DNA from: Ulvibacter sp. MAR_2010_11 | GTDB lineage: Bacteria > Bacteroidota > Bacteroidia > Flavobacteriales > Flavobacteriaceae | Direction of reading: 5' to 3' | Assembly (NCBI RefSeq): GCF_002813135.1 | Contig: NZ_PHTY01000001.1 | Span: forward strand, 119,501-183,500 | Length of the DNA: 64,000 nt | Shown here: positions 1 to 16,771 of the stretch, one piece after another | Position numbering within the stretch: the stretch's first letter is position 1 | How the letters are laid out: each line of letters starts with the position of its first letter | Notes under the pieces: generated by a model | What the model was told of the DNA's origin: nothing | Databases searched by the model: none | Seen by the model: only the letters and a program-made list of their open reading frames with translations | Translations under genes and position numbers: made by a program

Positions 1-4
1 ATTA

Positions 5-520
5 GTGGTTTTAATTGCGATCTACGCCACGCTGTTTCTGGGAGGTCAACTTCTGGATTTAATGGTTGAACGGCGAATAATAGAACAGGGTTTATTTTAC
101 TTATTCCTTCTATTATTCATCACATTCATAATTAGCGGATGGAAAAGTTCCAGAAATAGATTAGAAAATTGGATTTATGCTGGAGTGATTGCAGTTTATG
201 GCATGGCTTTGTTACGAATGGATATCACTACTTCTGAGCGCTCCCATATGATTGAATATGGGCTACTCTCAATTTTAATTTATGAAGCATTGATTGAAAG
301 AAAGCGCAATGGTGTGAATGTCAAAATACCAGTCCTGACTTCAATTTTGGGAGCTGGAACTATCGGATTATTGGATGAATGTATTCAGTATTTTTTATCC
401 TATCGCATTTTCGATATGGTAGACATTGGGTTCAATTATTTGGCATCTGCATTCGGAGTAATTACAAGTATTGGAGTTAGAAAATTAAAACAAGTTTTTA
501 CGAATTGGCAAATGAAGTAG
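5..520 (+). CDS. VanZ-family membrane protein (possibly 5'-truncated by the window edge)
   Basis: This is a small integral membrane protein of the VanZ family. The family is named after a teicoplanin-resistance protein, but the role of most members is unknown. Four hydrophobic segments are visible. The family signature is clear: ERSHMIEYG at residues 78-86, then LLDECIQ at 122-128, then VDIGFN at 139-144. The frame is still open at base 2, so the GTG at 5 may not be the true start and a few N-terminal residues may lie outside the window. A palindromic spacer begins about 17 bases after the stop. Family assignment is confident; function is not. Confidence 0.85.
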   Translation: MVLIAIYATLFLGGQLLDLMVERRIIEQGLFYLFLLLFITFIISGWKSSRNRLENWIYAGVIAVYGMALLRMDITTSERSHMIEYGLLSILIYEALIERKRNGVNVKIPVLTSILGAGTIGLLDECIQYFLSYRIFDMVDIGFNYLASAFGVITSIGVRKLKQVFTNWQMK

Positions 521-536
521 ATAAGAATATAAAAAC

Positions 537-707
537 TATACGCAACAACTCATATCGAAAATGGCTAGCAATGTCGAATCAGATTCTTTATCATCATAAA
601 AAACTATATTTTTAATCTAACTAAATGAAAAGCGGCTTCACCATTGCCCGCCCTTACCTATCCCGAGCTTGTTGAAGGGTCATAGCTGCGAGCGTGGGAA
701 TGCATAC
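537..707 (+). repeat. Cassette-type spacer A with a REP-like core
   Basis: Non-coding spacer between the VanZ and NTF2-like genes. Its left end (CGCAACAACTCATATCG, from 541) resembles the left ends of other spacers here. Its inner part runs from AGCGGCTTCACCATTG (631) through a degenerate copy of the widespread palindrome GAGCTTGTCGAAGG (665-678), then CATAGCTGCGAGCGTGGGAA (681-700). The same order of blocks recurs at 4402-4536 and, more weakly, at 20345-20420. No ORF or terminator is seen in it. Confidence 0.55.
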
Positions 708-753
708 GAAAGCAAATCAATAGAATTTAACAGTTGGCTAACAAAAAGAAAAA

Positions 754-1119
754 ATGGACTTAAATAAAGTGGTAAAACAATGGTTTAAAAAATGGGAAAA
801 AGGAGATTATCTCAACCTCCCTATTTCGGCAAATTTCACACATATAAGTCCCTTTGGCACTATAAACGGAAAGAAGACATATCTTGACTTGGTTAAAGAG
901 AATGAAGATAAATTCATTGGACAATATTTTGAAATACACGATGCAATTTATGAATCGAATAGGGCTTGTGTTCGATATACTGCCAATCAAGGAAAAGATT
1001 TTAGTTTGGACGTAAGTGAATGGTATTATGTAAAAAATAATCTGATTGAAAAAATAGTCGCATATTACCACATAGGCGACATACGCGAAGACAGAAACAT
1101 TGAAAACTACAATAATTAA
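754..1119 (+). CDS. NTF2/SnoaL-like small protein
   Basis: A soluble 121-residue protein with no signal peptide. Its length and pattern fit the NTF2-like/SnoaL fold: an N-terminal helix with KQWFKKWEKGDY, then alternating strands, a GKKTYLDLVKEN helix, and a C-terminal strand pair ending IEKIVAYYH. Such proteins are often small-molecule-binding or isomerase-like, but no catalytic pair can be assigned. It stands alone between two spacers, so there is no operon context. The family call is by overall pattern only. Confidence 0.6.
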   Translation: MDLNKVVKQWFKKWEKGDYLNLPISANFTHISPFGTINGKKTYLDLVKENEDKFIGQYFEIHDAIYESNRACVRYTANQGKDFSLDVSEWYYVKNNLIEKIVAYYHIGDIREDRNIENYNN

Positions 1120-1134
1120 ATAAATGTACGATAC

Positions 1135-1250
1135 GCCAACAATGGTTATAAGTAATAGCTTGTTTTCGTAGATTTTCAGTTTGGGATGCACTTACAAAGT
1201 TAAGTGCTAAACCAAGCAACTAATGATCGCCGCGACCGTTGTGCAACATA
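1135..1250 (+). repeat. Cassette-type spacer B (attC-like)
   Basis: A compact spacer 15 bases after the preceding stop. The left end is GCCAACAATGGTTATAAGTA (1135-1154). The conserved inner box AAGTTAAGTGCTAAACCAAG plus CAAC is at 1197-1220. The right end is GACCGTTGTGCAAC (1234-1247), partly complementary to the left end. Very similar boxes occur in the spacers at 9049, 10028, 12227 and 16724. This is the cleanest of the attC-like elements. Confidence 0.6.
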
Positions 1251-1407
1251 AACGTTTGAATACAGTGGTAGAAATTGTAACCGACCATTTATTAGTTTGG
1301 AAATAGGATTATCAGTTATTTTATCTGAACATTCTAAGGTCAAACTCTCAATTTTTGCAAGAAATGGAATACGCTCGGCAAGAGGCAATCATTGATGTGA
1401 CGCGTAA

Positions 1408-1617
1408 AAGAAAGAAGCTATTTTAGCTTATGACAAACTTTACAAAGATTTTAACCGAATTTTTGAAATAATTGAAGTGCAAATTTCAGATTCTCCGAAT
1501 AATCACCTGGAGAAATTTGAAAAAAAAAGGAAATTGTTAAAATGGCTTTTTAATTTTAAATATGAAAAGATTAAAAATCGTAATATTAATGTTTACTGTC
1601 ATTACAGCATCAAGTTT
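1408..1617 (+). pseudogene. Possible C-terminal gene remnant, unrecognised
   Basis: Between spacer B and the DJ-1 gene, a frame without a plausible start is open from 1408. It encodes a charged helical stretch beginning KEAILAYDKLYKDFNRIFEI and runs into the next gene in another frame. It may be the tail of a lost cassette gene. No family was recognised. The rest of 1251-1407 shows nothing interpretable. Confidence 0.25.
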
Positions 1618-2380
1618 TAAAGACACACACAAAGAACCACCATCTGAAAAAGTTTCAGATGAAAAAATTGAATTACAAAAACATAGACAAATGAAAATAT
1701 TATTCGTTCTTACATCTCACGATAAATTAGGAGATACTGGAAAAAAAACAGGATTTTGGGTTGAAGAATTTGCAAATCCATATTACACATTATTAGACAA
1801 AGGTGCAACTATTACAATTGCAACACCCAAGGGAGGGGCTGCACCCATAGATCCTAGTAGTGATTCGCCAGATGCTGCAACTGAATATACAGAACGTTTT
1901 GATAAGGATGCTGAAGCAAAAGAAAGAATTGCAAACACAAAAGTGTTGGCAGATATGAATCCGGACGATTTTGATGCTGTCTTTTATCCTGGAGGACATG
2001 GTCCGTTATGGGACTTGTCAAACGACAAGACTTCTATTGCTTTAATTGAAAAATTTAATAGTCAAGAAAAGCCCATTGCCTTTGTCTGTCACGCACCCGC
2101 AGCGCTAAAAAAAGTGAAAGGTGCAAATGGAAATCCATTGGTAAAAGATAAAAAAGTAACAGGATTTACAAATACTGAAGAAGAAGCGGTGGGACTTACT
2201 AATGTTGTGCCATTTTTAGTAGAAGATATGTTGAAAAAAAACGGAGGAATCTACTCTAAAAAAGAAGATTGGGCATCTTATGCTATTCAAGATGGAAATT
2301 TAATTACGGGTCAAAACCCAGCTTCATCAGAATTGGTAGCAGAATTATTAATAAAAAAAATAGACCATATTATTAAATAG
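1562..2380 (+). CDS. DJ-1/PfpI-family protein with signal peptide
   Basis: A type-1 glutamine-amidotransferase-like protein of the DJ-1/PfpI superfamily, close to the Hsp31/chaperone-protease branch (members are glyoxalases, deglycases or chaperones). A cleavable-looking signal sequence fills residues 1-18. The domain runs from about 44 to 270. Visible marks are the conserved Glu region GFWVEEF (64-70), PGGHGP (143-148), and the nucleophile elbow FVCHAPA with Cys166 followed by His167. Length (272 residues) suits an exported member. It is a single-gene unit between spacers. The superfamily is firm; the exact activity is open. Confidence 0.85.
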   Translation: MKRLKIVILMFTVITASSFKDTHKEPPSEKVSDEKIELQKHRQMKILFVLTSHDKLGDTGKKTGFWVEEFANPYYTLLDKGATITIATPKGGAAPIDPSSDSPDAATEYTERFDKDAEAKERIANTKVLADMNPDDFDAVFYPGGHGPLWDLSNDKTSIALIEKFNSQEKPIAFVCHAPAALKKVKGANGNPLVKDKKVTGFTNTEEEAVGLTNVVPFLVEDMLKKNGGIYSKKEDWASYAIQDGNLITGQNPASSELVAELLIKKIDHIIK

Positions 2381-2399
2381 TACTTATAAAAAACCAGTA

Positions 2400-2530
2400 G
2401 CTAACAATGCATAAGAGCAATAGCGGTTTGGATCTTAATTTAAACCGTTTTGCTTTTAATTAAGTATCTTGTTATTAGAAAGTAGCAGCTTTTTAATCCG
2501 CTAATGCTCATGAACTTGACCATTGGGCAC
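2400..2530 (+). repeat. Cassette-type spacer C (attC-like)
   Basis: Starts 19 bases after the DJ-1 stop. The left end GCTAACAATGCATAAGAGCA (2400-2419), followed by ATAGCGG, is imperfectly complementary to the right end CCGCTAATGCTCATG (2498-2512) plus GACCATTGGGCAC (2518-2530). The whole element can fold as one long interrupted hairpin. The middle (2430-2490) is AT-rich and non-coding. Confidence 0.55.
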
Positions 2531-2599
2531 AATTAAACTGTCTGTGTTCACATCCAATAAAATTCATGCCTATCGATTTTTTAATCAAAATCAACTATT

Positions 2600-3514
2600 A
2601 TGAAACCATTTAAACTCCTAACGTTCTTTTTGCTTTTTAGCCTATTGTCAGGTACTTTGTTGGGTCAAGACCGACTTCCTATTATCGACATGCATATGCA
2701 TATTGGTGCGCCATTAGACTTACCTGCTGGTGCTCCAGCTCCTTGTCTGCCTCAACCATGCGTTAGAAAGGGACAGGCAACAGCAGATTCATCTAATAAT
2801 CTTATAAAGACGCTCGAAGCAATGGATCGCTATAACATTGTCAAAGGGTTTCTAAGTGATGTTAATGTGAATGAGCTCCAAGAGTGGGCAAATGCAGCAC
2901 CCGGTCGCTTCATTTTATCCTCATTTATTCTCGATCCGGCTAATTCTTCTCTAGAGGAACTAAGAAAGGAGCTAAAGGCTAAACGAATGGGGGGAATTGG
3001 TGAGATCGGATCACAACTTATAGGGATGGCTCCCAATGATCCCCGGCTAGACCCTTATTTTGCATTGGCGGAAGAATTTGATGTTCCGGTTCTGATTCAC
3101 ACCGAGGGAATTGGTCCTCCATTGCCCAGCTTTCGTGCTTCTGCCGGTAGCCCTCTTTTACTTGAAGCAGTGTTGGTAAGCCACCCGAAACTGCGGCTAT
3201 TCGTGGAGAATTCCGGATATCCTTATCTAGATGAAATGATTGCCATGATGTACCAGTATCCACAACTATATGGAGATTTATCTACGATAACTTGGATTAT
3301 TCCACAAAGTGCTTTTTACGACTACCTGAAACGACTCATCGAAGCCGGACTCGGAAAACGATTGATGTATGGGTCCGATCAGATGCGCTGGCCTGAAATG
3401 ATTGGGAAAGGAATCGAAGCTATTGAAGAAGCTGATTTTTTAACGAACGAACAAAAAAGAGACATCCTTTATAACAACGCAGTCAATTTTCTGAAATTAG
3501 ATATGGAGCATTAA
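2600..3514 (+). CDS. Secreted amidohydrolase family 2 protein
   Basis: An amidohydrolase-2-type metal-dependent TIM-barrel hydrolase or decarboxylase, 304 residues, with an N-terminal signal peptide (about 1-22, ending LLGQ). Metal-ligand motifs are visible: DMHMHIG at 30-36 (His32, His34), a mid-chain VLIHTEG, and a late YGSDQ carrying the expected Asp. Export suggests a periplasmic role. Substrate cannot be read from the sequence. The gene stands alone between spacers. Two other amidohydrolases in this half of the window belong to a different branch. Confidence 0.85.
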   Translation: MKPFKLLTFFLLFSLLSGTLLGQDRLPIIDMHMHIGAPLDLPAGAPAPCLPQPCVRKGQATADSSNNLIKTLEAMDRYNIVKGFLSDVNVNELQEWANAAPGRFILSSFILDPANSSLEELRKELKAKRMGGIGEIGSQLIGMAPNDPRLDPYFALAEEFDVPVLIHTEGIGPPLPSFRASAGSPLLLEAVLVSHPKLRLFVENSGYPYLDEMIAMMYQYPQLYGDLSTITWIIPQSAFYDYLKRLIEAGLGKRLMYGSDQMRWPEMIGKGIEAIEEADFLTNEQKRDILYNNAVNFLKLDMEH

Positions 3515-3569
3515 GTACTAGTAAAGTATTTTAGCTGATTAAACATCGGATAGATTTAAACTGCTCACA

Positions 3570-3862
3570 ACAACACACAACGCTAACGGTTTTGTCTGTA
3601 GTAAGCTTGATGCTTCTCATTTAGAAAATCAATATCTTTAACTTAAAAAAAAAGCAAGTGGCATTGCCATTGCTGGGAAAAGCACGCTGCCACGCCGGTA
3701 GCGGATGCCAGCCCGACAGTTTATTCTGGCGGGTACGTTCGGGCGGGCTGCTGATTCGCACCCTGTTGCGCGGCTTTCAACATTTGCTCCGCAAATTTGG
3801 TTCCGTCCGAATCTCAGCCGCAAGTCGCCACAAACATTATATGAAACCGTTGACGGCAATTC
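3570..3862 (+). repeat. Cassette-type spacer D with GC-rich folded core
   Basis: The left end CACACAACGCTAACGGTTTT (around 3574-3593) pairs with the right end GAAACCGTTGACGG (3843-3856), which lies just before the ATG at 3866. Between them, about 3658-3835 is strikingly GC-rich against AT-rich surroundings. It contains nested inverted repeats, for example GCTGATTCG with CGAATCTCAGC, and ATTTGC-TCC-GCAAAT. Long ORFs over this segment look like chance products of the GC bias. Confidence 0.55.
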
Positions 3863-3865
3863 ACC

Positions 3866-4306
3866 ATGATAACCTTAGACTACGAACTTTTTGGAGCCGG
3901 TTGGGCCAATGTAACCATTGGGAATGGAAATTCTCAATTTACATTGTCATACTCCTATTTACACGATTCACTCAAAGAACTTGCGAAATCGGCTGTACAA
4001 ATAAAACATTCACAAAGCAGCACAATTGTCTTTGTTTTAGAGCCTGAAGAATGTCAATTGATCTTAAATAAATTAGAAACTAATAAATTGCGGTTTGAAT
4101 TAAGGAAGTATCCCGAATGGTCTGAATACAATTCAACTAGAACAAATTTTGAACTTTTGATGAGTGGTACCTGTACTGTGAATAATTACATCAATGAAGT
4201 TAGAAATATCTTGATAGGTATATTAGAAAAAATGAGCCCATCAGATTATAAAAAGAAATGGAAACTAAGCGATTTTCCAATATCAGAGTATGAACTCTTG
4301 AGATAG
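3866..4306 (+). CDS. Hypothetical protein, 146 residues
   Basis: Soluble and acidic, with no signal peptide and no recognised family. The N-terminal half looks beta-rich (TIGNGNSQFTLSYSYL), then a helix (LHDSLKELAKSAVQIK), then a second beta-alpha unit (TIVFVLEPEECQLILNKLE). This general pattern is seen in small immunity-like or DUF proteins, but that is only an impression. The start is 4-9 bases after the right end of spacer D, fitting a gene cassette. Coding status is supported by low-GC codon use that contrasts sharply with the preceding spacer. Confidence 0.65.
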   Translation: MITLDYELFGAGWANVTIGNGNSQFTLSYSYLHDSLKELAKSAVQIKHSQSSTIVFVLEPEECQLILNKLETNKLRFELRKYPEWSEYNSTRTNFELLMSGTCTVNNYINEVRNILIGILEKMSPSDYKKKWKLSDFPISEYELLR

Positions 4307-4307
4307 A

Positions 4308-4536
4308 CTACCAGCATCACCGATATCTGTAAAGCTAATTTTGCCTATTAGATGATATGTTGAACAAATAACCTACATTTATCTAACCGAAAATATTGAC
4401 CAAGCGGCTTCGTCATAGTCCGCCAGTACCGGATAGGTAATTGCCTGCATGGTTCGGGTGGGCGCTCGGGCGGGAGGCGTACCCCGTCCTGTTCTGAGCA
4501 TGTTAAAGGACCATAGCTGCACACATTAGTGGCAAT
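4308..4536 (+). repeat. Cassette-type spacer E with REP-like core
   Basis: The left end CTACCAGCATCACCGATATC begins one base after the preceding stop. The core AGCGGCTTCGTCATAG (4402-4417), a degenerate GAGCATGTTAAAGGACC (4495-4511) and the right end CATAGCTGCACACATTAG plus TGGCAAT (4512-4536) follow the same block order as spacer A. The next ATG is at 4546. There is no ORF or terminator. Confidence 0.55.
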
Positions 4537-4545
4537 TATAACAAA

Positions 4546-5751
4546 ATGCATAAAGGGAACAATCCTATATTACCAAAAAATAGAATTGAATTTCTAGATG
4601 CCCTTCGAGGCGTGGCGCTTTTAGGTATTATTCTAGCCAATATGGTAAGCTACTCACTCTTTCTATATTTGGCGGATCATCAACTTAACAATATCGGATT
4701 ATCTAGATTAGATAAGATCCTTGATTTCCTAGAACTGATGTTGATAGAAGGTAAATTTTACACGATATTTTCTATATTATTTGGAATAGGATTTTCAATA
4801 ATTATAGAGAGGTCAAGGTCAAAAAATCAGAATTTTATAAGATTCTTTTTGTGGAGAATGACATTATTAGCCTTAATGGGAGTAATTCATGCCATTTTCT
4901 TTTGGCATAATGACATTTTACTATTTTATGCCTGCTGTGGAATGTTACTAATTCCAATGTCAGGGCTTTCCGGTAGGACTATCCTCTTTATCGCAATTAT
5001 TATGTTTCTTGTTCCGCTGGGAATAAAGTTGACTTTTGGAACAACGGGAGACCTATTTTTACAGATTCAAAATCAACTATTTGAAAAATATGGGTTTACA
5101 GAAAGTAATAGAGTAGATGTATGGACAAATGGTAGTTGGATTGATATCTTACAATTAAATCTAAGCATGTGGTTTGGTCAATTTGAATACGTAATTGGTC
5201 ATGGCATGATCTATAAAATATTTGGAAGTTTTTTAATTGGATATTTATTTGGCAGAAGAAAGCTTCACGAAAGATTAGTAGAGCTTAAGCCGGATTTAAA
5301 AAAAATTGCTTTATGGGGTGTACTTATAGGCCTTGTACTAAATTTCATTTATGCATCAAACTTTTATACCGAATCCTGGAAATTGTCCCTATCCGAGACC
5401 TTCGGTATACTACCATTAAGTTTAGGATATATTGCTTTAACCGCGATATTCTGGCAGAGTGATCAATTTAAAAAAGGAATGTCGCTATTTGTTCCGGTTG
5501 GAAGAATGGCATTGACCAATTACATATTTCAAAGTGTTATTTGTACATTGATATTTTACAATACCGGTCTTGCGCTTGGAGCAGAATATGGGCCTTCTCG
5601 TTATTTACTGCTTGGACTTATTATATATGCGTGTCAAGTAATTATGAGTAAAGTTTGGTTAGCAAAATTTCAATACGGCCCACTAGAATGGTTATGGCGA
5701 TCGTTAACATATGGAAAAATTTTAAGTAACTTGAAAAATAAAAACCACTAA
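4546..5751 (+). CDS. DUF418 (YeiB-like) membrane protein
   Basis: A 401-residue polytopic inner-membrane protein of the DUF418/YeiB family, distantly related to acyltransferase-3 and heparan-acetyltransferase-like proteins. The N-terminus carries the typical RIEFLDALRGVALLGI signature (residues 13-28). Eight to ten hydrophobic segments follow, and the C-terminal part (from about 230) is the DUF418 domain with FVPVGRMALTNYIFQS. The length is normal. A transport or acyl-transfer role is suggested for the family but unproven. Its TAA stop lies inside the left end of the next spacer (CACTAACAATAAG), as is common for integron cassettes. Confidence 0.88.
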   Translation: MHKGNNPILPKNRIEFLDALRGVALLGIILANMVSYSLFLYLADHQLNNIGLSRLDKILDFLELMLIEGKFYTIFSILFGIGFSIIIERSRSKNQNFIRFFLWRMTLLALMGVIHAIFFWHNDILLFYACCGMLLIPMSGLSGRTILFIAIIMFLVPLGIKLTFGTTGDLFLQIQNQLFEKYGFTESNRVDVWTNGSWIDILQLNLSMWFGQFEYVIGHGMIYKIFGSFLIGYLFGRRKLHERLVELKPDLKKIALWGVLIGLVLNFIYASNFYTESWKLSLSETFGILPLSLGYIALTAIFWQSDQFKKGMSLFVPVGRMALTNYIFQSVICTLIFYNTGLALGAEYGPSRYLLLGLIIYACQVIMSKVWLAKFQYGPLEWLWRSLTYGKILSNLKNKNH

Positions 5752-5773
5752 CAATAAGTATGTGCCATATGCT
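5746..5773 (+). repeat. Left end of a degenerate cassette spacer
   Basis: CCACTAACAATAAGTATGTG (5746-5765), then CCATATGC, overlaps the DUF418 stop codon and matches the left-end pattern of the other spacers. No convincing partner right end is seen before the gene remnant that starts near 5903. The stretch 5774-5900 holds no ORF. Confidence 0.4.
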
Positions 5774-5902
5774 TTGGATTATTCTGTCAAGTTGATTCTA
5801 ACGTAACTGCGCTTTTTGTGGTTTTACATGCAAAAAGAACTTTCGGAGGTCTCCCTGAACCAACTTTGCGAAGTGACACGCCACTCAAATTCCGTTTGAT
5901 AC

Positions 5903-6166
5903 AAATGTACTTTTAAATATATTCCACTCAAATGCAAAGAAAGTAAGGATTATCTAAATAGACTTAATGAAGAATTAGTGAATGAGTTACAGACCGGCGG
6001 AGAGTTATTTTTATCAAATGCTATTGTAAATGAAATGTATAGTTTAAGAGATTGTATTGTTAATTTCAGGACTTCGAAAAATGATATTACAAAGATTATT
6101 GAAATTATAGTTAGAGAGGGAAGAAAGACTCATTCGAGATTACAAGAACGAAAAATGAATTCATAA
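5903..6166 (+). pseudogene. C-terminal remnant of a PLP-dependent decarboxylase
   Basis: An open frame running into the stop at 6166 encodes LNRLNEELVNELQTGGELFL, then SNAIVNEMYSLRDCIVNFRT and IIREGRK-like residues. This is the typical C-terminal end of group-II pyridoxal-phosphate decarboxylases (the aromatic amino acid/glutamate decarboxylase-type fold). The catalytic lysine and the whole large domain are absent, so it cannot be an active enzyme. A GTG at 5978 could still start a 62-residue peptide. It looks like the surviving tail of a lost cassette gene, just before another spacer end (about 6169-6190). Confidence 0.6.
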
Positions 6167-6227
6167 GGTGTTGCAACAACATATAACCCTTAGACAAATT
6201 GGTTGGGCACCATTAAAATAGAAAACA

Positions 6228-6857
6228 ATGAAAAATATTTTAGGAATACTCTTTTTGGTTTTTATCATTTCTTCTTGTAAAGGTCAAACTGAAAAGGTTA
6301 GTAATAGACTAATTGGAGGTCCATGTGAGGATTGTGATGCGGCTTTAGACTATAAAGTCTTGAATATCGACCCAGAACCGACTGTAACAATAAATGGATT
6401 TAACACGACCGATCCAAAAATCAAAATTACTGGAACCGTTTTGAAGCCTGATGGTAAAACACCGGCGGACAACGTGATTCTCTATGTTTATCAAACGAAT
6501 CGTAAAGGATTTTACGAACCCAGCGAAAACCCGGTCGGTTGGGAGAAAAGGCACGGAAAATTTCGGGGATGGATGAAAACAGGTTCCGATGGAAAGTTTG
6601 AATTTTATACATTCAGACCGGCACCATATCCCGACGGAAGAGAGCCAGAACACATTCATCTATACATAAAGGAGCCCGGTAAAAATCCCTATTATGTGGA
6701 TAATTATCTGTTCGATGATGACCCTATGCTAACCAATGAGGAAAGAAAGTCAATAGACAAAAGAGGTGGCTCAGGAATAATAGAATTAGAAAATAATAAT
6801 GGGATATTCTCTGCAAATAGAGATATTATTCTTGGATTGAATATTCCGGACTATTAA
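6228..6857 (+). CDS. Intradiol ring-cleavage dioxygenase-like lipoprotein
   Basis: A lipoprotein (lipobox ending at Cys17) with the beta-sandwich domain of intradiol dioxygenases, the non-haem Fe(III) enzymes that open catechol or protocatechuate rings. The four expected iron ligands can be proposed: Tyr96 (KGFY), Tyr134 (PAPYP), His142 and His144 (EHIHLYI). The early GGPCEDCDAAL motif (30-40) is common in the Bacteroidetes subgroup. At 209 residues it is close to a single catalytic domain. A secreted lipidated dioxygenase is unusual compared with the cytosolic catabolic enzymes, and no aromatic degradation genes are nearby. It may act on other substrates. Confidence 0.85.
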   Translation: MKNILGILFLVFIISSCKGQTEKVSNRLIGGPCEDCDAALDYKVLNIDPEPTVTINGFNTTDPKIKITGTVLKPDGKTPADNVILYVYQTNRKGFYEPSENPVGWEKRHGKFRGWMKTGSDGKFEFYTFRPAPYPDGREPEHIHLYIKEPGKNPYYVDNYLFDDDPMLTNEERKSIDKRGGSGIIELENNNGIFSANRDIILGLNIPDY

Positions 6858-6866
6858 TAAGAAGAC

Positions 6867-6961
6867 GTTGCACAACAATGGCCATTATATGAATAATGTA
6901 AAAAATAAAGCTATTTCAAGATTTATTGTTATTTTAATACTGAACATTAATCCATTTTAAA
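6867..6961 (+). repeat. Cassette-type spacer with clear left end
   Basis: GTTGCACAACAATGGCCATT (6867-6886), then ATATGAATAATG, follows the dioxygenase stop by 9 bases and matches the other left ends. A complementary right end is not obvious before the ATG at 6962, so the element is short or degenerate. Confidence 0.45.
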
Positions 6962-7420
6962 ATGAACACATTTTCATACTATTTCACATTCTTAGTGATA
7001 ATTTTTATTATCGGACCGAAGTCTGCTTTGGCACAGAAGCAAGATGAATATAAAGTTGTAGTAAATCACGAGGAACAATATTCGATTTGGCCGGTCAATA
7101 AAAATCCTCCCAAGGGTTGGCAGGAGACAGAGATACTTGGAAATCAAGCCAAATGTCAAGATTACATAGAAGAAGTTTGGACCGATATGCGGCCTTTAAG
7201 TATTCAAAAAATGAATTTACCTGAAAATACGGAGTACTTCGTAGTTATAAATCATGAAGAGCAGTATTCCATTTGGCCAAAAGAACTCGCTTTGCCAAAA
7301 AATTGGAAGCCAACAAAAATCCATGGAACCCTCTATCCTTGTGTGAAATACATTAAAAAAGCTTGGACAGATATGCGGCCTTTAAGTCAACGTAAAGGGA
7401 GAATGATTAGGAAAAACTGA
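6962..7420 (+). CDS. Secreted protein with two tandem MbtH-like domains
   Basis: 152 residues: a signal peptide (1-25, ending ALAQ) followed by two MbtH-like domains. Domain 1 (about 28-82) has NHEEQYSIWP (35-44), Cys65, YI (68-69) and WTDMRP (73-78). Domain 2 (about 90-143) repeats NHEEQYSIWP (97-106), Cys127, YI and WTDMRP (135-140). MbtH proteins are normally single cytosolic domains of 60-80 residues that bind and activate adenylation domains of nonribosomal peptide synthetases. Here the family core is kept, but the protein is duplicated and apparently exported. No synthetase lies in the window. The family call is strong; the function is unknown. Confidence 0.9.
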   Translation: MNTFSYYFTFLVIIFIIGPKSALAQKQDEYKVVVNHEEQYSIWPVNKNPPKGWQETEILGNQAKCQDYIEEVWTDMRPLSIQKMNLPENTEYFVVINHEEQYSIWPKELALPKNWKPTKIHGTLYPCVKYIKKAWTDMRPLSQRKGRMIRKN

Positions 7421-7667
7421 GAGGCCGTAAGCTTGAAGAATTATCAAATTTTTTAACAAAAAAGTTCGTAAATATGGTTTGTGACAACCTTTATTTTTTG
7501 AGAATACTAACCCCACACAAAATCATATATAAAAATTGCTCAAGACTTGGTTATCTTTAAATTCTCCCTACTTTTAAAAAACAATTAAAGCCGGAAGATT
7601 TGTGCTTCTAATGAATCGCACTTTTCTTACCGGGTGTATTCCATCAAATAAATCAAGGGAAAATCAA
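7421..7667 (+). other. Intergenic region with promoter-like element
   Basis: No convincing spacer ends are seen here. A -7-like TATCTTTA lies at 7552-7559. An in-frame ATG at 7602 would add 22 unconserved-looking residues to the next protein, and the ATG at 7668 is preferred. Confidence 0.3.
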
Positions 7668-8927
7668 ATGAAAAAAAAGTTTACAATTTATTATAATAGG
7701 CTGCGCGGTCAGCTATGGTTTAGACCGCTACTATTTTGTTTGTTCTCGGTTGCTGGTGCTTTAGCAGCTCATCAAGCCGATGGAATTGGAATCAATGACC
7801 TTGTTCCCAATATTGATACCGAATCAATCGAAGGCCTCTTAGATACCATTTCAGCCAGCATGTTGGTCATTTCAATATTTGCTGTTGCATCCATGCTCTC
7901 CGCATTCTCGTCGGCAAGTGGTACAGCAACCCCAAGATCTTTCAAAATCGTAGTCACGGATGATGTATCACAGAATGCACTGTCTATTTTTATAGGAGCC
8001 TTCATCTTTAGTATAGTTGCGACGATAGCACTTGATAATGGATATTATGAAAAAGCAGGTAGATTTATTCTGTTTTTGTTGACTTTATTATTGTTTGTAG
8101 TTGTTATACTTACCTTTTTAAAGTGGGTAGGGAGAATTTCAAGATTAGGACGTTTAGAGCACACAATACAGCAAGTAGAAACAGTTGCTTCCAAGTCCTT
8201 ATCCACCTATATAAAACATCCTTATCTAAAAGCTCTTCCGATAAAAGATAAATTCGATGCTGGTAAAGTAATCTTCGCAAATACTATTGGATATGTTCAA
8301 CATATCAATTTGGAGTCTTTACAAATGTTGGCAGAAGAAAAGGAATTTAGAATTCAACTTAATTGTCTTCCGGGCAAGTTTGTCCATAAAAATTTTGCCA
8401 TTGCACACCTAAGCTCAGCCCATAATTTGGATATTAATGAGATCCAAAAAAGTATAAACGAGTCAATTCATATAGGTCACACTAGATTATTCAGCGAAGA
8501 TCCTAGATTTGGATTAATATCATTGACTGAAATTGCAAGTAGAGCCTTATCCCCTGGCATTAATGACCCTGGAACGGCAATCCAAATTCTAGGTAGCCAC
8601 GAAAGGTTGTTTTTTTTATGGCAAGAAATAGAAAATAACACTGATGAAACAGTGGAATATGATCGAGTAGAAGTGCCTAAAATCTCGATTCAAGATTTCT
8701 TTGACGATGCTTTTAGACCAATTGCGAGGGACGGTGCAGTTAATATTGAGGTGATGTTGAGATTACAGAAAGCATTGACATCAATAGAGACTATTTCTAA
8801 TCCAGAATTAAAAGAAGCTGCAATGCAACATTCCATAAAAGCGTACAACAGAGCTGAAATAGGAATGGAGTTTAAAGACGATATCGCTATTTTAAGAACA
8901 CATTGTTTATTTAACAAAAATCTATAA
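7668..8927 (+). CDS. DUF2254 predicted membrane protein
   Basis: A 419-residue membrane protein of the DUF2254 family. The N-terminal half has four hydrophobic segments, with a conserved SISAxMLVISIFAVASMLSA-type region and SASGTATPRSFKIVV. The C-terminal half is soluble and contains the family's well-conserved LTEIASRALSPGINDPGTA. Function is unknown. The start at 7668 (MKKKFTIYYNRLRGQLWFRP) matches the usual N-terminus. The gene is followed by a well-preserved spacer. Confidence 0.88.
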   Translation: MKKKFTIYYNRLRGQLWFRPLLFCLFSVAGALAAHQADGIGINDLVPNIDTESIEGLLDTISASMLVISIFAVASMLSAFSSASGTATPRSFKIVVTDDVSQNALSIFIGAFIFSIVATIALDNGYYEKAGRFILFLLTLLLFVVVILTFLKWVGRISRLGRLEHTIQQVETVASKSLSTYIKHPYLKALPIKDKFDAGKVIFANTIGYVQHINLESLQMLAEEKEFRIQLNCLPGKFVHKNFAIAHLSSAHNLDINEIQKSINESIHIGHTRLFSEDPRFGLISLTEIASRALSPGINDPGTAIQILGSHERLFFLWQEIENNTDETVEYDRVEVPKISIQDFFDDAFRPIARDGAVNIEVMLRLQKALTSIETISNPELKEAAMQHSIKAYNRAEIGMEFKDDIAILRTHCLFNKNL

Positions 8928-8939
8928 AGCAAGAAGAAA

Positions 8940-9096
8940 GCGTAACAGTGTTTATATTTAATGGGTAGTGCTCGCCAACTTACGAAAATTGCGCTCGCCA
9001 GTTCGTTTCGCTCGTGGCTCAGGGATTTTCTATTTGGTTTTTTTGCATAATCTAGTGCTTAAACTACGCAACAAACCATACACAAGGCCTTTAGCT
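8940..9096 (+). repeat. Cassette-type spacer G (attC-like, homologous to spacer J)
   Basis: The left end is GCGTAACAGTGTTTATATTT (8940-8959). The middle carries GAAAATT ... GTTCGTTTCGCTCGTG ... ATTTTCTATTTGGTTTTT, which matches spacer J (12115-12279) block by block. The conserved box AATCTAGTGCTTAAACTACG plus CAAC is at 9049-9072. GAAAAT and ATTTTC are inverted, giving an inner hairpin. Confidence 0.6.
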
Positions 9097-9116
9097 TTCA
9101 CAAGAACTTCAATAAC

Positions 9117-9876
9117 ATGATAACGTTTTATCTACTTGTACTACTTCTATGTTTGTTGTAAACAGAGAGATTCTGAATGGATTGATCTATCTAAACATGA
9201 AGGATTATTTGAAATTAATGCAACTGACAAATTCGAAACCTATTCCACACAATCGAAACCAGAGCATCTACAAAATACTATCGGAAACATTGAGTCAGCA
9301 AAAGAATACTTTGATAAAATATTTGATTAGCATCTAAAATTTGCTGTTCTTTTCATTGGTAATAAAAACCGGAAAAAAAATGCATTTGCACCTCCTCCGG
9401 GAATGCCACAAGCTTATTACGATGGGAACATGGTGCTTGGATTGGAAAAATCAGTTATGGCTCACTTACAGGAGGAAACCTTAAAAAATGCTTCAATTAC
9501 GGAACTCGATACCCTGAAAAAATATCACGGAAGTGAGATAAATTTGGATTTATTTTACAGAGATGCCTTGCCTATTCATGAACTTGGAGATTTGTATCAA
9601 TCTTTTCATACCGGTAGAAAATCACAAAGAAAGTGGCTGGATGAACTTTTTGCAAATCTTTGTCAAGTTGGCGTAGTCAAAAATTTTAAAGACCAAAGTA
9701 CTTTTCAAAGAATGGATGCTTATCAAGGGTATGTAATTAGGGCCGACCAATGGGGAGAAATAATATTCACATCACTTGATCAATTTGAAAAAGACTATTT
9801 TGAGATATTCAAGCAAGGACGAAATTATATTCAAAAGCCAAAAGATTACATGCGTTGTATGGAGACAATATTCTAA
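9117..9876 (+). pseudogene. Broken paralogue of the HExxH protein encoded at 43180-44127
   Basis: Three pieces reconstruct one decayed gene. ATG at 9117 gives a signal-like MITFYLLVLLLCLL and stops. After a frame change, 9136-9330 reads SAKEYFDKIFD and stops at a TAG. The same frame continues to 9876 with APPPGMPQAYYDGNM, an HELGD motif, WLDELFANL and TSLDQFEKDY. These align in order with the intact protein at 43180 (DAGNYFQEE, HEMGH, WMGELFVNI, TSLEDFERLY). The second His of HExxH has become Asp and the C-terminus is about 40 residues short. The protein is unlikely to work. A separate gene from a GTG/ATG near 9403 cannot be fully excluded. Confidence 0.7.
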
Positions 9877-10012
9877 TCAAATTCCGAGACTTTCATATTA
9901 AAATCAATACTAAAATCCGTGAAAAAATTGTCACAAAAAATTATTCGAGATGATGCTTAAGGAATTTGGAATTGAAACTATGCATATATTAGAATGGAAA
10001 TACGATAGCTAA
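9877..10012 (+). pseudogene. Short C-terminal remnant ending inside the next spacer
   Basis: A frame ending in TAA at 10010 encodes KKLFEMMLKEFGIETMHILE then WKYDS. Its stop codon falls in the GCTAAC left end of the next spacer, which is where integron cassette genes often stop. No start or family is recognised. It is probably the tail of a deleted cassette gene. Confidence 0.3.
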
Positions 10013-10138
10013 CTTCGTATAAAAAAATTTGCTAAATTAGTATTACCCAACGTCAGGTGCAGTTTTGTTACATCTGATTTTCCTTCAAAAATCAGCGCAC
10101 ACAAAACCGCTACCCATCTTTTACAAGCGCGTTGTAAC
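10008..10138 (+). repeat. Cassette-type spacer H (attC-like)
   Basis: The left end is GCTAACTTCGTATAA (10008-10022). A shortened copy of the conserved box, TTTGCTAAATTAGTATTACC plus CAAC, is at 10028-10051. A hairpin CTGATTTTCCTTCAAAAATC plus AG follows. The right end is GCGCGTTGTAACC (10126-10138), about 20 bases before the ATG at 10158. Confidence 0.55.
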
Positions 10139-10157
10139 CAATTTATTATAATGACTT

Positions 10158-10892
10158 ATGGACAAGAAATTAAAAATCAAAGTGTTCCCCAAAGCGCATT
10201 TATGGTTATTAATACCATTTGTACTAACAATCGCTGGATTTTATTTGTCATATTGGAGTAAATTCAGTGAAGCTCCATGGCGACAACATATGCATGGTTT
10301 ATCAGCTACTGCCTGGTATATTCTTGTAATATTACAGCCTTGGTTAATTCATAATAAACCTCCTATCTATCATAAAAAATTGGGGATTATAGGCATCTTT
10401 TTAGCAGGTGCTGTAGTTTTTTCAGCAGCTCAAGTGATGCCGCATCAGGTAGTAAACGAGTTTCTTCCAGACGTGCTTAAATATGGATTTTCTTTTGCTG
10501 ATTTATGCGCGCTTGCCGGTTTTAGTATATGTGTAATCGTAGGAGTATGGAGTGCTAGAAATATCAATGTACATGCCCGATGGTTAATTTCAACAGTATT
10601 TTGGATTTTATTACCAGCCACGGCCCGATTAGTTTTTTTTCCTATGTTAAATATCTACGATGGCAACCCTCCTATTACCTATTTACAAACGGTTTATATT
10701 TGTTTCGTTTTGACGACTTTATTACCATTACTTTATATGATATTCTTGGATTACAAAAGGGAGAATAAAGTATATAAATCGTATCTATTTACATTAAGCG
10801 GGATTACCTTTTATACGTTAGCTATTGCTCCCATGGGAAAATGGCCATGGTGGATTGACATTTGCCATAATATCATTGGAAAAGGAATGTAA
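10158..10892 (+). CDS. Polytopic membrane protein, possibly DUF2306-like
   Basis: 244 residues with about seven hydrophobic segments. The region WRQHMHGLSATAWYILVILQ (residues 42-61), followed by PWLIHNKPPIYHKKLG, contains regularly spaced histidines. It resembles the HxHG/QPW...HRRLG pattern of DUF2306-type and cytochrome-b561-like small membrane proteins. This suggests a possible haem- or quinone-related protein, but the assignment is tentative. The start follows a spacer right end, and the gene ends 8 bases before the next left end. Confidence 0.6.
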   Translation: MDKKLKIKVFPKAHLWLLIPFVLTIAGFYLSYWSKFSEAPWRQHMHGLSATAWYILVILQPWLIHNKPPIYHKKLGIIGIFLAGAVVFSAAQVMPHQVVNEFLPDVLKYGFSFADLCALAGFSICVIVGVWSARNINVHARWLISTVFWILLPATARLVFFPMLNIYDGNPPITYLQTVYICFVLTTLLPLLYMIFLDYKRENKVYKSYLFTLSGITFYTLAIAPMGKWPWWIDICHNIIGKGM

Positions 10893-10900
10893 TATAATTG

Positions 10901-10925
10901 GCTACAACACCGGCTATAATTCAGC
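10901..10925 (+). repeat. Cassette spacer left end I
   Basis: GCTACAACACCGGCTATAAT (10901-10920), then TCAGC, is close to the consensus left end and starts 8 bases after the preceding stop. No clear right end is seen. The 230 bases up to the ATG at 11155 hold only an unconserved upstream extension of the next reading frame (from 11014). Confidence 0.5.
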
Positions 10926-11154
10926 AGGTCTGAATCGTAAACTTGATATTTATTGCTACATTTAACCTTATTATTAATTGGAATGAATTCGGTGAGAAGC
11001 TCCTACATCCAACTTGTCCGCCTACTCTTTAGCATCGACGAACACTACGAGTGTCGTGCCTATACTACCGAAATTATATCCAAACCCTTTTGTGCTATTT
11101 GATCCTGCCGCTTTCTATAAGGTGGTTTTTTTAATAATTCTTAAATTAAAATAT

Positions 11155-12093
11155 ATGACCTCCGGAAATACCAACATTAAAGATGCCATAGGGTGTACCC
11201 CAATGATAGAATTAAAAAATATAGTCCCCCCTAATTCTGCCCGAATTATAGCAAAATTAGAAAGTGCCAATCCAACAGGAAGCATGAAGGACAGAATGGC
11301 CAAAGCAGTAATTGAAGAAGCCGAAAGAAAAGGGTTTATAAAAAAGGGAAGTACTATTGTAGAATATACGGCCGGAACAACAGGTATATCACTCGCATTT
11401 GTATGCGCATCCCTTGGTTATAATTTTCATGCAGTCTTTTCTGATGCTTTCAGCAATGAAAAGAGAATTACGATGAAGGCTTTTGGAGCTACCATTACAG
11501 ACGTATTAAGTGATAATAAAAAAATAACTGAACGTCTCATTAAAGAGATGATTGATACATCAAGGAAGTTTAGTGAGCAAGAAAATCACTGGTGGGCAGA
11601 TCAATTAAACAATCGTGATGCAGAGAAGGGTTATTATTCGCTTGGCGATGAAATATGGGAACAATCTAAAGGAAGTGTAGATGCTTTTGTTCATACAGTA
11701 AGTACGGCACATTCCATCCATGGTGTAACTAAAGCGCTTTTAAAGCATAACGATAAAATACAAACATTTGCCGTAGAACCAGATGAGTCTGCAGTCTTGT
11801 CTGGTCGACCTTCCGGCTCACACAAAATTGAAGGTATTGGCATCGGTTTTATTCCTCCGTTATGGCAACCGGAAATAGTAAACGAGATTTTAACTGTTAC
11901 AACCGAAGATGCTATGAGTATGGCTAGAAGAGTTGCTAAAGAAGAAGGAATTTTTGCAGGTACTTCTACCGGAGCCAACATTTGCGCATCCCTGAAAATA
12001 GCGGAGAGACTTGGTCCTGGAAAAACTGTAGTAACCCTAATTGTTGATTCCGGGCTGAGATATATCAGTACGCCTTTATATCAATCCCTATAA
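11155..12093 (+). CDS. Cysteine synthase-family PLP enzyme
   Basis: A fold-type II pyridoxal-phosphate enzyme of the O-acetylserine sulfhydrylase/cystathionine beta-synthase family, 312 residues from the chosen ATG. The PLP lysine is Lys45 in GSMKDRM; IGCTPMIEL (12-20) and YTAGTTG (71-77) are the substrate loops. The usual asparagine after the TGSMKDR block and the glycine-rich phosphate loop (HTVSTAHSIHG, where typical enzymes read GTGGT) are altered, so the substrate may not be O-acetylserine. The longer frame starting at 11014 adds 47 residues of unlike composition, so 11155 is preferred. Confidence 0.8.
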   Translation: MTSGNTNIKDAIGCTPMIELKNIVPPNSARIIAKLESANPTGSMKDRMAKAVIEEAERKGFIKKGSTIVEYTAGTTGISLAFVCASLGYNFHAVFSDAFSNEKRITMKAFGATITDVLSDNKKITERLIKEMIDTSRKFSEQENHWWADQLNNRDAEKGYYSLGDEIWEQSKGSVDAFVHTVSTAHSIHGVTKALLKHNDKIQTFAVEPDESAVLSGRPSGSHKIEGIGIGFIPPLWQPEIVNEILTVTTEDAMSMARRVAKEEGIFAGTSTGANICASLKIAERLGPGKTVVTLIVDSGLRYISTPLYQSL

Positions 12094-12114
12094 ACAAAAA
12101 ACTCACTAAAAACA

Positions 12115-12279
12115 GCACACAATACCGGCTATAAATAATTACTTGTTCTCGCCTATTTCTGAAAATTACTTGCAAAAGTTCGTTTCGTTCGTGCCTCGCG
12201 TATTTTCTATTCGGTTTTTATTTGCTAAATTAGTTGCTAAATCACCCAACAAAATCACGCAAAAAACTGTTGGTGATCG
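12115..12279 (+). repeat. Cassette-type spacer J (attC-like, best preserved)
   Basis: The left end GCACACAATACCGGCTATAA (12115-12134) is followed by ATAATTACTTGTTCTCGCC. A middle homologous to spacer G comes next, with GAAAAT and ATTTTC inverted around GTTCGTTTCGTTCGTG. The conserved box AAATTAGTTGCTAAATCACC plus CAAC is at 12227-12250. The right end CTGTTGGTGATCG ends 6 bases before the ATG at 12285. Confidence 0.65.
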
Positions 12280-12284
12280 TTCTC

Positions 12285-13646
12285 ATGCTTTTGAAAAATT
12301 TAATAATTCTATTCCTGAGCCTTCTTATCCTAAGCTGTTCAAAACAAACAGCAAAATACGACTTGGGCATCAGCAATGTCAACCTTATTGATGGAACGGG
12401 AAGTCCTATTCAGGAGGGAGTATCCGTTTATATTAACAAGGGAAAAATAGTTGAAATTAATACGTTGACTACTCATCAAATTGAAAACGTCATTGACGGC
12501 ACCGGCAAGTACCTGATACCCGGATTATTCGATTGCCATGTTCATACAACAAGCTTTCAAGAAGACTTTCCTAAACTGATCCATTATGGAGTTACTTCCG
12601 TTTTTGTGCCCGGCGGGAGTACTTGCACGAATGATTATTATGCCACACTTCGATCTATAGGAAACCAAGACTCCATACCTGCGCCACGAGTATTTCATAC
12701 CAGCCAGCATTTTACTATGGAAGGACGGCACCCGGTAAAAACTTATGCCAGTAGTAACTGGAAAGAAGGTGAGACGGTATTCTTTCTTAAGGATACAGCT
12801 CAAATTGCTGAAATAGTTAAAGAAGTGGCCAAGTATCCTATTCTTGGAATAAAGCTGACGATTGAAGATGGGCCTGCTCCACCCTTTGTTGAGCGAATGC
12901 CGCAAGATTTTATTAACAAGACAGTTTCAGAAGCAGCTAAATACGGATTGGAAGTTTTTGCGCACGTAAGTGACAATGAGGAATTTTTGATGGCTGTAAA
13001 GGGTGGTGCTCAAAATATTGTTCATTTCGTAGGAATTGAGATTGATTGGGAGAACGATGAACATATTTCAGCGATCAATAAACTATTGGACCGGGAGGGT
13101 TCAATTGTAACGACACTTATGATTGATAAATCGTTCATCTATCCATTGAATCCTGAATGGCTTAAGACACCTTCAATAATTGAAGCATATCCGGCAGTCG
13201 AATTAAAAAAACTTCTTACCCCTCAAGCGATTGGACGCGCACAAAAAATGGCCGCGCTAACCAAGTTGGAATATGGTCTGGATGAAATTTCCATGGAGAG
13301 CTTATTCTTATCAAAAGTGGAGGATATTCAAAGACTTCTTGATCTTGGAATGAACATTACACTTGGTACTGATGCTGGTAATTCCTTCAATTTTCACGGA
13401 TACAGCCTGCACGAAGAAATGCAAATACTTGAAATGGGTGGAATCGCGCCACGAGACATCATCAAAATGGGAACACTTAATGCTGCAAGAATGATGCATG
13501 TTCAAGATAGTCTAGGTTCTATTGAGCCGGGAAAACTTGCTGATTTAATTCTACTGAATGCGAACCCTTTGGCATCTATTAGTAATTGCTTGGACATAAA
13601 TACGGTGATTAAGAACGGTGTGATACAAAAGAGGATTGATAAATAA
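12285..13646 (+). CDS. Imidazolonepropionase-like amidohydrolase lipoprotein
   Basis: A 453-residue metal-dependent hydrolase of the amidohydrolase-1/imidazolonepropionase-like group, with a lipoprotein signal (LLILSCSKQ). Visible features are a composite N-terminal beta domain, the zinc motif IPGLFDCHVHTT, EVFAHVSDNEE and HFVGI (further His ligands), TLGTDAGN with the catalytic Asp, and a C-terminal GSIEPGKLADLILLNANP block. Members include prolidase-like and Xaa-Pro dipeptidases, but the substrate cannot be told. An ATG at 12234 lies inside the preceding spacer, so the start at 12285, giving a proper signal peptide, is preferred. Confidence 0.88.
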   Translation: MLLKNLIILFLSLLILSCSKQTAKYDLGISNVNLIDGTGSPIQEGVSVYINKGKIVEINTLTTHQIENVIDGTGKYLIPGLFDCHVHTTSFQEDFPKLIHYGVTSVFVPGGSTCTNDYYATLRSIGNQDSIPAPRVFHTSQHFTMEGRHPVKTYASSNWKEGETVFFLKDTAQIAEIVKEVAKYPILGIKLTIEDGPAPPFVERMPQDFINKTVSEAAKYGLEVFAHVSDNEEFLMAVKGGAQNIVHFVGIEIDWENDEHISAINKLLDREGSIVTTLMIDKSFIYPLNPEWLKTPSIIEAYPAVELKKLLTPQAIGRAQKMAALTKLEYGLDEISMESLFLSKVEDIQRLLDLGMNITLGTDAGNSFNFHGYSLHEEMQILEMGGIAPRDIIKMGTLNAARMMHVQDSLGSIEPGKLADLILLNANPLASISNCLDINTVIKNGVIQKRIDK

Positions 13647-13651
13647 AATCG

Positions 13652-13781
13652 GCTACCAACAGATGGGATGAGTGAATGAAGTTTCATCGGTCAGGATATT
13701 TCGGCGGCTCTTGAAAAGTCCGCGACGAAGTGTAAATTAAATGTTTGTGACTTGTACTAGTGGAAACGTTGGTGATTTTTA
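13652..13781 (+). repeat. Cassette-type spacer K
   Basis: The left end GCTACCAACAGATGGGATG begins 5 bases after the stop. The right end GGAAACGTTGGTGATT (13762-13777) shares GTTGGTGAT with spacer J. The middle carries CGGCGGCTCTTGAAAAGTCC and is non-coding. Confidence 0.5.
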
Positions 13782-13782
13782 A

Positions 13783-14172
13783 ACCCCGCACATCATAGTG
13801 AGTTCAAAAAATTTTGGAAAAATTCCTAAAATGGCTGTATGTTATGAAAATGATAGGATAGGAAACTGGAAATCTAATGAAGAATACTATTTAAATCATT
13901 TAATTGAAGCTGGAGGAATTTATACCAATATAAATGATTACAGCAAATATCTTGAAGCATTAAGGCAACGACGAATATTTACTGATTCGACACATGTTCT
14001 ACTTTTTAAATCAATGTCCATGAAAATTGAATTTCATTCACATCATATGAGCGTTTTGAAAGGTAAGAAATCGTCGTATGCCATGGGTTGGGAAATAACA
14101 GATTCTTTAGCTGTATCAGCAGGATTATATTATGGAGTTAATAACCGTGTTGAACTAAGAGAAAAAACTTGA
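13783..14172 (+). pseudogene. Fragment of a class-C beta-lactamase-family serine hydrolase
   Basis: The readable piece (GTG at 13798) has EAGGIYTNINDYSKYLEALR and SSYAMGWEI, typical of the middle-to-late part of beta-lactamase/penicillin-binding-protein-like serine hydrolases. The N-terminal SxxK and YxN catalytic motifs are absent. After AMGWEI the usual HGG segment is missing and replaced by an unrelated tail ending VELREKT. The fragment is flanked by a spacer right end and a GCGACACAATATTG left end (14183), so it may be a decayed cassette. Confidence 0.55.
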
Positions 14173-14236
14173 GAGAAATTTAGGCGACACAATATTGTTA
14201 AAGACTTAGTTACAGTATAAACTTAAAACAATAACA

Positions 14237-15766: not shown

Positions 15767-15777
15767 TCCGATAAGGG

Positions 15778-16101
15778 GTATACAACGCCCTTATGTTCTG
15801 CTTAGAAGATGCAGGATATTCAAATATGACTAGAATATTAATGATAATTTTAATTTTCACTTTTAAACTTTGTTAGTGGTTTAGTGATACTTTCGATTTT
15901 AGTATTAATTTACTTGAGGTATTGTGTGAAAGACGAACCTTAATAAAATACAGAAGCAAAAACTAAGTTTAACAAGGTTGAAAAATTATAAGTAGTTTAG
16001 TGCTTACATAATGAGTAGTCTCGATTCGCTAACTTAAGATTTTCCTGCTGAAAATACCGGCAATTAATGCCGTACTATTCTTATACATAAACGCTGTATA
16101 C
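15778..16101 (+). repeat. Cassette-type spacer L with long terminal inverted repeat
   Basis: The left end GTATACAACGCCCTTATG (15778-15795) and right end CATAAACGCTGTATAC (16086-16101) are inverted copies with small differences, the best outer palindrome in the set. The 290 bases between hold a GTTTAGTGCTTACAT piece of the conserved box (around 15995-16009) and no ORF. The next ATG is at 16120. Confidence 0.55.
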
Positions 16102-16119
16102 AAATTACAAAGACATCAT

Positions 16120-16629: not shown

Positions 16630-16638
16630 AAACCATTT

Positions 16639-16770
16639 GCCAACATCGTGTTTTATTAATTGTCTTGGCTGATACCTATTTAGAAATTTCGAAGGAATTC
16701 TCATTGGTTCGAGATTGTTTATTAAATTAGGCGTAAAACCGCGTAACTAAGTATTAAAGAACACGTTTGC
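16639..16770 (+). repeat. Cassette-type spacer M (attC-like)
   Basis: The left end GCCAACATCGTGTTTTATTA (16639-16658) is complementary to the right end TAAAGAACACGTTTGC (16755-16770). The conserved box AAATTAGGCGTAAAACCGCG plus TAAC is at 16724-16747. The next ATG is at 16772, directly after the right end. Confidence 0.6.
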
Positions 16771-16771
16771 T

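Follow-up and report, generated by a model that had tools for sequence, protein, structure and literature searches.

The gene under study lies in the first part of the window (the whole stretch of 64,000 nucleotides analysed here), between a gene for an intradiol-dioxygenase-like protein whose start resembles that of a lipoprotein (6228-6857) and a gene for a DUF2254 membrane protein, both assigned by Pfam. The features of the locus are as follows:

6867..6877, + strand: GTTGCACAACA motif between the upstream gene and the double-MbtH gene (motif scan)
6962..7420, + strand: double-MbtH gene, an ORF of 152 amino acids with an ATG start and PF03621 in two stretches
6962..7033, + strand: predicted signal peptide of the Sec/SPI type, 24 residues, with the hydrophobic core FLVIIFIIG and then ALA↓QKQ (cleavage ALA↓Q)
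7028..7030, + strand: in-frame TTG, codon 23, a possible alternative start giving a form that lacks the signal peptide (start-codon scan)
7034..7417, + strand: predicted mature protein of 128 amino acids with an N-terminal Gln, expected as pyroglutamate (AlphaFold2 model)
7037..7207, + strand: MbtH domain 1, residues 26-82, with the Trp clamp W43 and W53 (64.5 bits by itself)
7223..7393, + strand: MbtH domain 2, residues 88-144, with the Trp clamp W105 and W115 (53.3 bits by itself)

An MbtH protein is usually a small single domain without a signal peptide, or else a domain of an NRPS chain, and the window protein departs from this form in having two domains and a predicted signal peptide. The MbtH family of Pfam (PF03621) is found twice along the 152-residue protein (4.7e-33 overall), either half by itself exceeding the cut-off of 27, and a 39-nt stretch is common to domain 1 and domain 2 at 87% identity. 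The AlphaFold2 model of the mature part, built with 24 sequences, has a mean pLDDT of 81.9 and predicts two units, each with three strands and one helix, with a weak linker and C-terminus and an unreliable relative placement of the domains (pTM 0.52); all seven matches from a Foldseek comparison with the PDB (E up to 0.001) are MbtH chains. The preliminary description of this DNA had recognised two tandem MbtH domains and proposed a structure prediction. The scores of the separate halves bear the recognition out, and the AlphaFold2 and Foldseek results point to two predicted MbtH folds. Compared with the consensus VxxNxExQxSLWP-x5-PxGW-x12-L-x6-WTDxRPxSL (PMC7593251, cited in part), domain 1 has I in SLWP, Q for the middle L, and I for the final L, and domain 2 has I, V, and Q at the same places as well as N for the G of GW. 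The I in place of the L of SLWP is also found in all 82 MbtH rows compared below.

A scan of the genome collection yielded at least 575 stretches encoding a relative of the protein, 80 of which were kept. Two of these are tandem (L003 with 62% identity and L004 with 64%), both from Saprospiraceae-labelled MAGs; in none of the remaining 78 does a single frame shorter than 400 amino acids contain a pair of WxDxRP-type motifs. A PF03621 search of 398 genomes of the family to which one of the two MAGs (G396) belongs found MbtH in 12, five of them with the tandem architecture or its first half: G395 (the source of L003), G396 (the source of L004), G517, G536, and G486. In G486 the contig ends behind domain 1 and so truncates the gene, while the G517 contig begins inside the signal peptide, following a presumably adapter-like stretch. 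Within the window's own family the tandem gene is carried by two of 397 genomes (that of the window and G1148) and was not found in two congeners; a class-wide sample of 395 genomes gave a PF03621 match in five, with two matches only in that of the window. The preliminary description had called for a search for secreted or duplicated MbtH proteins, and the outcome is a tandem family of which seven members have been seen, six with a signal peptide, two in the window's family and five in that of the Saprospiraceae MAG G396, both belonging to Bacteroidota. All seven pass the PF03621 cut-off. The two families are very likely distinct, because the aconitase of the window genome is 76-86% identical to that of six genomes of its own family and 66-69% identical, over most of its length, to that of G395, G458, G486, and G517 (for G536 the values are 71% and 62% in two pieces, and for G396 65% in one piece).

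The window protein is 71% identical to that of G536. In a tree of 95 domain rows and 57 columns, many forks of which are unresolved, the 13 domains of the tandem family form one clade (support 100/97); the first copies form a clade at 87/79, while the second copies do not, a topology that fits one duplication before the members diverged. Both domains are intact in all six members long enough to show two, and the mature part is under purifying selection (dN 0.157 and dS 3.2 for the pair from the window and G536; dS is saturated for most other pairs). Two other forms were met among the relatives: an MbtH domain that runs into a long tail in which acidic, Gln, and His residues are repeated (L127 3022-3354, from G604), and a degenerate short MbtH-like ORF of 44.8 bits without the WTDMRP end (L123 4298-4486, from G542), with a second weak match 8 kb further on.

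Signal peptides were called by a simple scoring of our own, based on the best 9-residue Kyte-Doolittle mean and a possible cleavage site. The window protein reaches a mean of 3.47, and six of the seven family members (window, G1148, G536, G395, G517, and G486) have a signal peptide, with a core hydrophobicity of 2.38-3.47. The possible +1 residue is Gln in all six (ALA↓Q, VSA↓Q, AIA↓Q, AIG↓Q, LMG↓Q, and VTA↓Q), as predicted by the Bacteroidetes Q-rule, according to which SPI substrates usually have Gln at +1, which is cyclised (PMC5837995 and PMC10653852, both cited in part). By its sequence the window protein appears to fit the Bacteroidetes Sec/SPI criteria, namely a hydrophobic core, small residues at -3 and -1, Gln at +1, and no lipobox Cys; there is no Lys or Arg ahead of the core. 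A crude scan of the window ORFs found 15 of 64 to be SPI-like, six of these 15, the double-MbtH gene among them, having a Gln+1 site. The signal peptide ending in ALAQ that had been described earlier thus agrees with the cleavage predicted here, and export of the protein from the cytoplasm is suggested by these features.

How firmly the signal peptide belongs to the protein bears on one rival explanation, namely a cytosolic tandem MbtH that still helps an NRPS, its hydrophobic N-terminus being either skipped by a start at TTG codon 23 or meaningless. A downstream start removing the signal peptide, named in the preliminary description as evidence that would speak against export, does exist in two members: the TTG of the window gene and, at the matching place just before the cleavage site, an ATG in G517. 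Both would favour this rival, but no start codon is found at the cleavage site in G1148, G536, G395, and G486, the four other signal-bearing members. The only other in-frame alternative start of the window gene is a GTG at codon 12, within the hydrophobic core. The seventh member also speaks for an NRPS helper, as no signal peptide precedes the G396 homologue, either in its own frame as far back as the stop codon or in the other frames within 180 bases upstream, and this homologue comes from a genome with ten Condensation matches. Against it, the hydrophobic core and the Gln+1 have been kept in six of seven members despite a fast change of letters: between the window and G536 the signal-peptide part has a dN of 0.341, compared with 0.157 for the mature part, so that the letters change faster while the signal character is kept.

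A set of 54 other MbtH N-termini, selected with a stricter pattern than the interface set used below, contains two with a hydrophobicity above 1.8 (L007 with 2.50 and L010 with 1.86). A looser scan found a hydrophobic stretch upstream of four ordinary MbtH domains (L010, L027, L079, and L104), each time with a Met in between. The MbtH of L007 (5983-6285, from a Xanthomonadaceae-labelled MAG) has a signal-like N-terminus with AVA↓Q and no start codon before the domain; judging from its sequence it looks like a case separate from the tandem family, and the genes that follow it are, we assume, halogenase-like and carbamoyltransferase-like.

The genome of the window, a single contig of 3,033,586 bases, contains no MbtH other than the double-MbtH gene by the PF03621 search, and a profile search of its 3.03 Mb found no Condensation domain and no amino-acid adenylation domain above the curated cut-off (best score 134.7 bits against 317.4). 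Its four AMP-binding proteins have as best matches the acetate-CoA ligase AcsA and the flexirubin ligase FlxY, both over the model cut-offs, and a FadD-type ligase and MenE, both below theirs. The earlier statement that the window holds no NRPS can thus be extended to the whole genome. The seven genomes with the tandem gene differ in their numbers of Condensation domains, with none in that of the window, G1148, and G536, two in G395, ten in G396, three in G517, and one in G486 (completeness is given for two of the seven, 99.98% for the window genome and 100% for G1148). Adenylation domains over the cut-off, scored in six of these genomes, are present in G395, G396, G517, and G486 and were not found in the window genome and G536.

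A link to an NRPS is therefore possible in the genomes of four members, which lends the idea of a retained NRPS helper some weight, but the three genomes without Condensation domains stand against it, as does the result that no NRPS gene lies beside any of the seven tandem genes in the stretches seen, three loci being cut at or near the gene. With the evidence from the N-termini taken together, we consider this rival unlikely. The absence of an NRPS is by itself nothing special, because single MbtH genes without a signal also occur in genomes in which no Condensation domain was found (G458, G604, G789, and G012); special are the export signal and the tandem arrangement. In G458, whose contig C1 of 7.5 Mb equals the whole assembly size given, the MbtH gene lies at L100 1453-1662, and G604 has an adenylation-type protein of 310.6 bits, just below the cut-off of 317.4. 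These single genes, like the three tandem-bearing genomes devoid of Condensation domains, would also suit a decaying leftover, i.e. a duplicate of MbtH whose hydrophobic start arose by chance, its host genomes having lost their NRPS. Such decay, however, is at odds with the two intact domains in six of six members, with the purifying selection on the mature part, and with the same architecture in two Bacteroidota families, and it is judged very improbable.

The surroundings of the gene were compared by all-against-all blastp of ORFs of 80 amino acids or more at the seven loci, of which those of G517 and G486 (contig end inside the gene) and G536 (143 bases after the gene) are cut close to it. 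The double MbtH was recovered at six of the seven, the cut frame of G486 having been dropped by the overlap filter, and no neighbour gene common to the loci was found beside it. The other families linked by blastp (amidohydrolases, a Crp-type regulator, SnoaL-like, short-chain dehydrogenase, and receptor-like proteins) each occur at two loci and are never gene-adjacent in both. A gene pair in the same order, with 58% and 62% identity, is found at 33993-35026 of the window, ca. 27 kb from the MbtH gene, and at L129 7727-8761, just after the tandem MbtH of G396; we take the two genes to be a Crp-type regulator followed by a SnoaL-like gene.

A scattered accessory gene of this kind might code for an exported protein acting against other cells or in defence (a secreted antagonist, a decoy, or a protein of the immunity type). 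Its patchy occurrence in two of 397 genomes of the window's family, with two congeners in which it was not found, would be in keeping with such a role, as would the lack of common neighbours around what is a small orphan gene with a predicted export signal. Nevertheless, no partner gene is conserved alongside it, Pfam recognises MbtH but neither a toxin nor an effector domain above a cut-off, and a search of 50,697 phage records (E up to 0.01) returned nothing for the protein, so that a function in antagonism or defence is considered quite unlikely.

As to mobile DNA, a phage or plasmid origin was considered and dismissed: the phage records gave no hit; 298 plasmid records match, and among the 20 matches listed the span is at most 258 bases, too short for the tandem. 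A viral-contig origin was likewise set aside, with one locus and a match spanning 198 bases. The motif at 6867-6877 is one of two GTTGCA...CAACA motifs (the other at 6170-6181) that flank the dioxygenase-like gene; 0.15 are expected, and two or more occurred in one of 100 shuffles, while none was found directly after the MbtH gene. A search for repeats at positions 1-20000 of the window found 13 families of direct repeats, the majority with just two short copies; one family is the internal repeat of the MbtH gene. The longest is a 90-base intergenic pair (8953-9042 and 12130-12219), 73% identical and present in two copies. Rfam gave no match over the window at gathering scores, and an integron or cassette array was rejected, k-mer counts and motif scans being unconvincing in the window and at the relatives' loci scanned. 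The cassette-like array in which the gene had been placed earlier thus finds little to sustain it: no convincing repeats were found around the MbtH gene, and the two motifs flank the upstream gene only.

The residues by which MbtH proteins touch adenylation domains were compared in 82 rows from 82 loci, each row an ungapped segment of 57 residues fitting a loose MbtH pattern; the loci were mostly chosen by likeness to the window protein, and MbtH with insertions or more distant ones were left out. TxtH residue numbers (PMC7593251, in the part cited) were converted to alignment columns with an offset of 7, which holds for all the residues mentioned in that part. In the tandem family the signature NxExQxSxWP...WTDxRP is nearly unchanged: each of the two clamp Trps is kept in 12 of 13 domains, S23 in 11 of 13, and WTDxRP in all 13. 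The periphery is different. The equivalent of K/R44, present in 82 of 82 compared rows, occurs in none of the 13 tandem-family domains, the equivalent of L48 occurs in 79 of 82 rows and one of 13 domains, and Gly at alignment column 32 in 75 of 82 rows and four of 13 domains. These differences are read from the counts themselves, because the rows are not independent of one another, as Fisher tests on the interface residues would assume. Residues 44 and 48 are predicted adenylation-domain contacts, that of R44 for one of two Txt domains only (PMC7593251, relevant part). Two predicted contacts would thus have been lost in the tandem family, with the clamp Trps kept. The loss of L48 is no proof of lost binding, because YbdZ, which has Gln at position 48 (PMC7593251, same part), binds the NRPS EntF, to go by the title of PDB entry 5ja1. 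An acid near the N-terminus (D6 of TxtH) was tried as a mark of lost NRPS binding and discarded as not diagnostic, being present in just 33 of the 82 compared rows. The nearly intact signature is also compatible with a protein that still binds the old kind of partner, and counts to that extent in favour of the retained NRPS helper.

Read from the sequence, the window gene combines two MbtH domains, a signal-peptide-like start, and membership of the tandem family, and it lies in a genome in which no NRPS genes were found. A job other than NRPS help is probable because an export signal is present and no synthetase was found in the bacterium, and the double-MbtH protein has probably been turned to such a job outside the cytoplasm. 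The preliminary description had seen in it a repurposed extracytoplasmic MbtH fold, a reading favoured by the lack of a detected NRPS in the genome, the signal peptide in six of seven members, and the predicted fold. The explanation that we regard, on balance, as probable is that MbtH gave rise to an exported protein with two binding sites that works independently of any NRPS, its clamp retained and its partner changed. It would have originated by one duplication of an NRPS-helper MbtH together with the gain of a signal peptide. The small soluble protein would be exported through Sec and cut by signal peptidase I after ALA, which would leave an N-terminal Gln, and the mature protein would fold outside the cytoplasm as two tandem MbtH domains, serving no NRPS in the window organism. 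Its most likely action would be that of a two-site binding protein, an adaptor or a chaperone. In an MbtH, the paired-Trp clamp and the S-I strand together hold a small residue that protrudes from the partner. Each domain would keep these two elements, and the clamp would probably be re-aimed at an extracytoplasmic protein or peptide, because the Trp clamp and the S-I strand have been kept while peripheral residues predicted to fit the adenylation domain have changed. The same pattern suggests both the retained clamp function and the change of partner; by analogy, one might guess that the new partner is an alanine-bearing loop or peptide. The broader proposal, that the MbtH fold was duplicated and exported in Bacteroidota and became an extracytoplasmic, NRPS-independent binder whose two Trp clamps grip a new partner, is also favoured, with a little more reserve. 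MbtH genes serve as pointers to NRPS gene clusters, and here such a gene occurs where no NRPS was found. If export is true, the MbtH fold serves a purpose independent of adenylation domains, and a Trp clamp retained in changed surroundings amounts to a natural experiment on the residues needed for NRPS binding.

The literature searched, with subscription journals lying largely outside it, yielded no description of an MbtH that is secreted or in tandem. PMC9205934 speaks of a duplicated gene within an NRPS cluster, and PMC10654065 treats MbtH as the ordinary NRPS helper; PMC7593251 mentions Baltz's signature for predicting functional MbtH homologues (each paper cited in part). Of the characterised proteins, PA2412 of Pseudomonas aeruginosa (PDB 2PST and 5JA2) resembles domain 1 at 1.5e-17 by phmmer and gives the best Foldseek matches, and the signature and the predicted fold of the PA2412/PF03621 family are the same as those of each window domain. 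The MbtH-like proteins known so far are, in the cited part of PMC7593251, single domains working with NRPS adenylation domains, whereas the window protein is a tandem with a signal peptide in a genome where no NRPS was found. SlgN1 and ObiF1, in which MbtH is fused to NRPS proteins, likewise have MbtH inside a longer chain, and the SlgN1 chain 4gr4_A matches window domain 2 weakly (E 0.0044), but in these fusions MbtH is joined to an adenylation enzyme or an NRPS module (PMC7593251 and PMC6668435, both in part), while in the window protein it is joined only to a second MbtH and a signal peptide. The SPI substrates obeying the Bacteroidetes Q-rule have the same kind of signal peptide with Gln at +1, and no MbtH protein is named among them in the part of PMC5837995 cited. 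The MbtH of Myxococcus xanthus is also called an orphan, but to judge from a title it reportedly interacts with several NRPSs, whereas the window genome shows no such partner.
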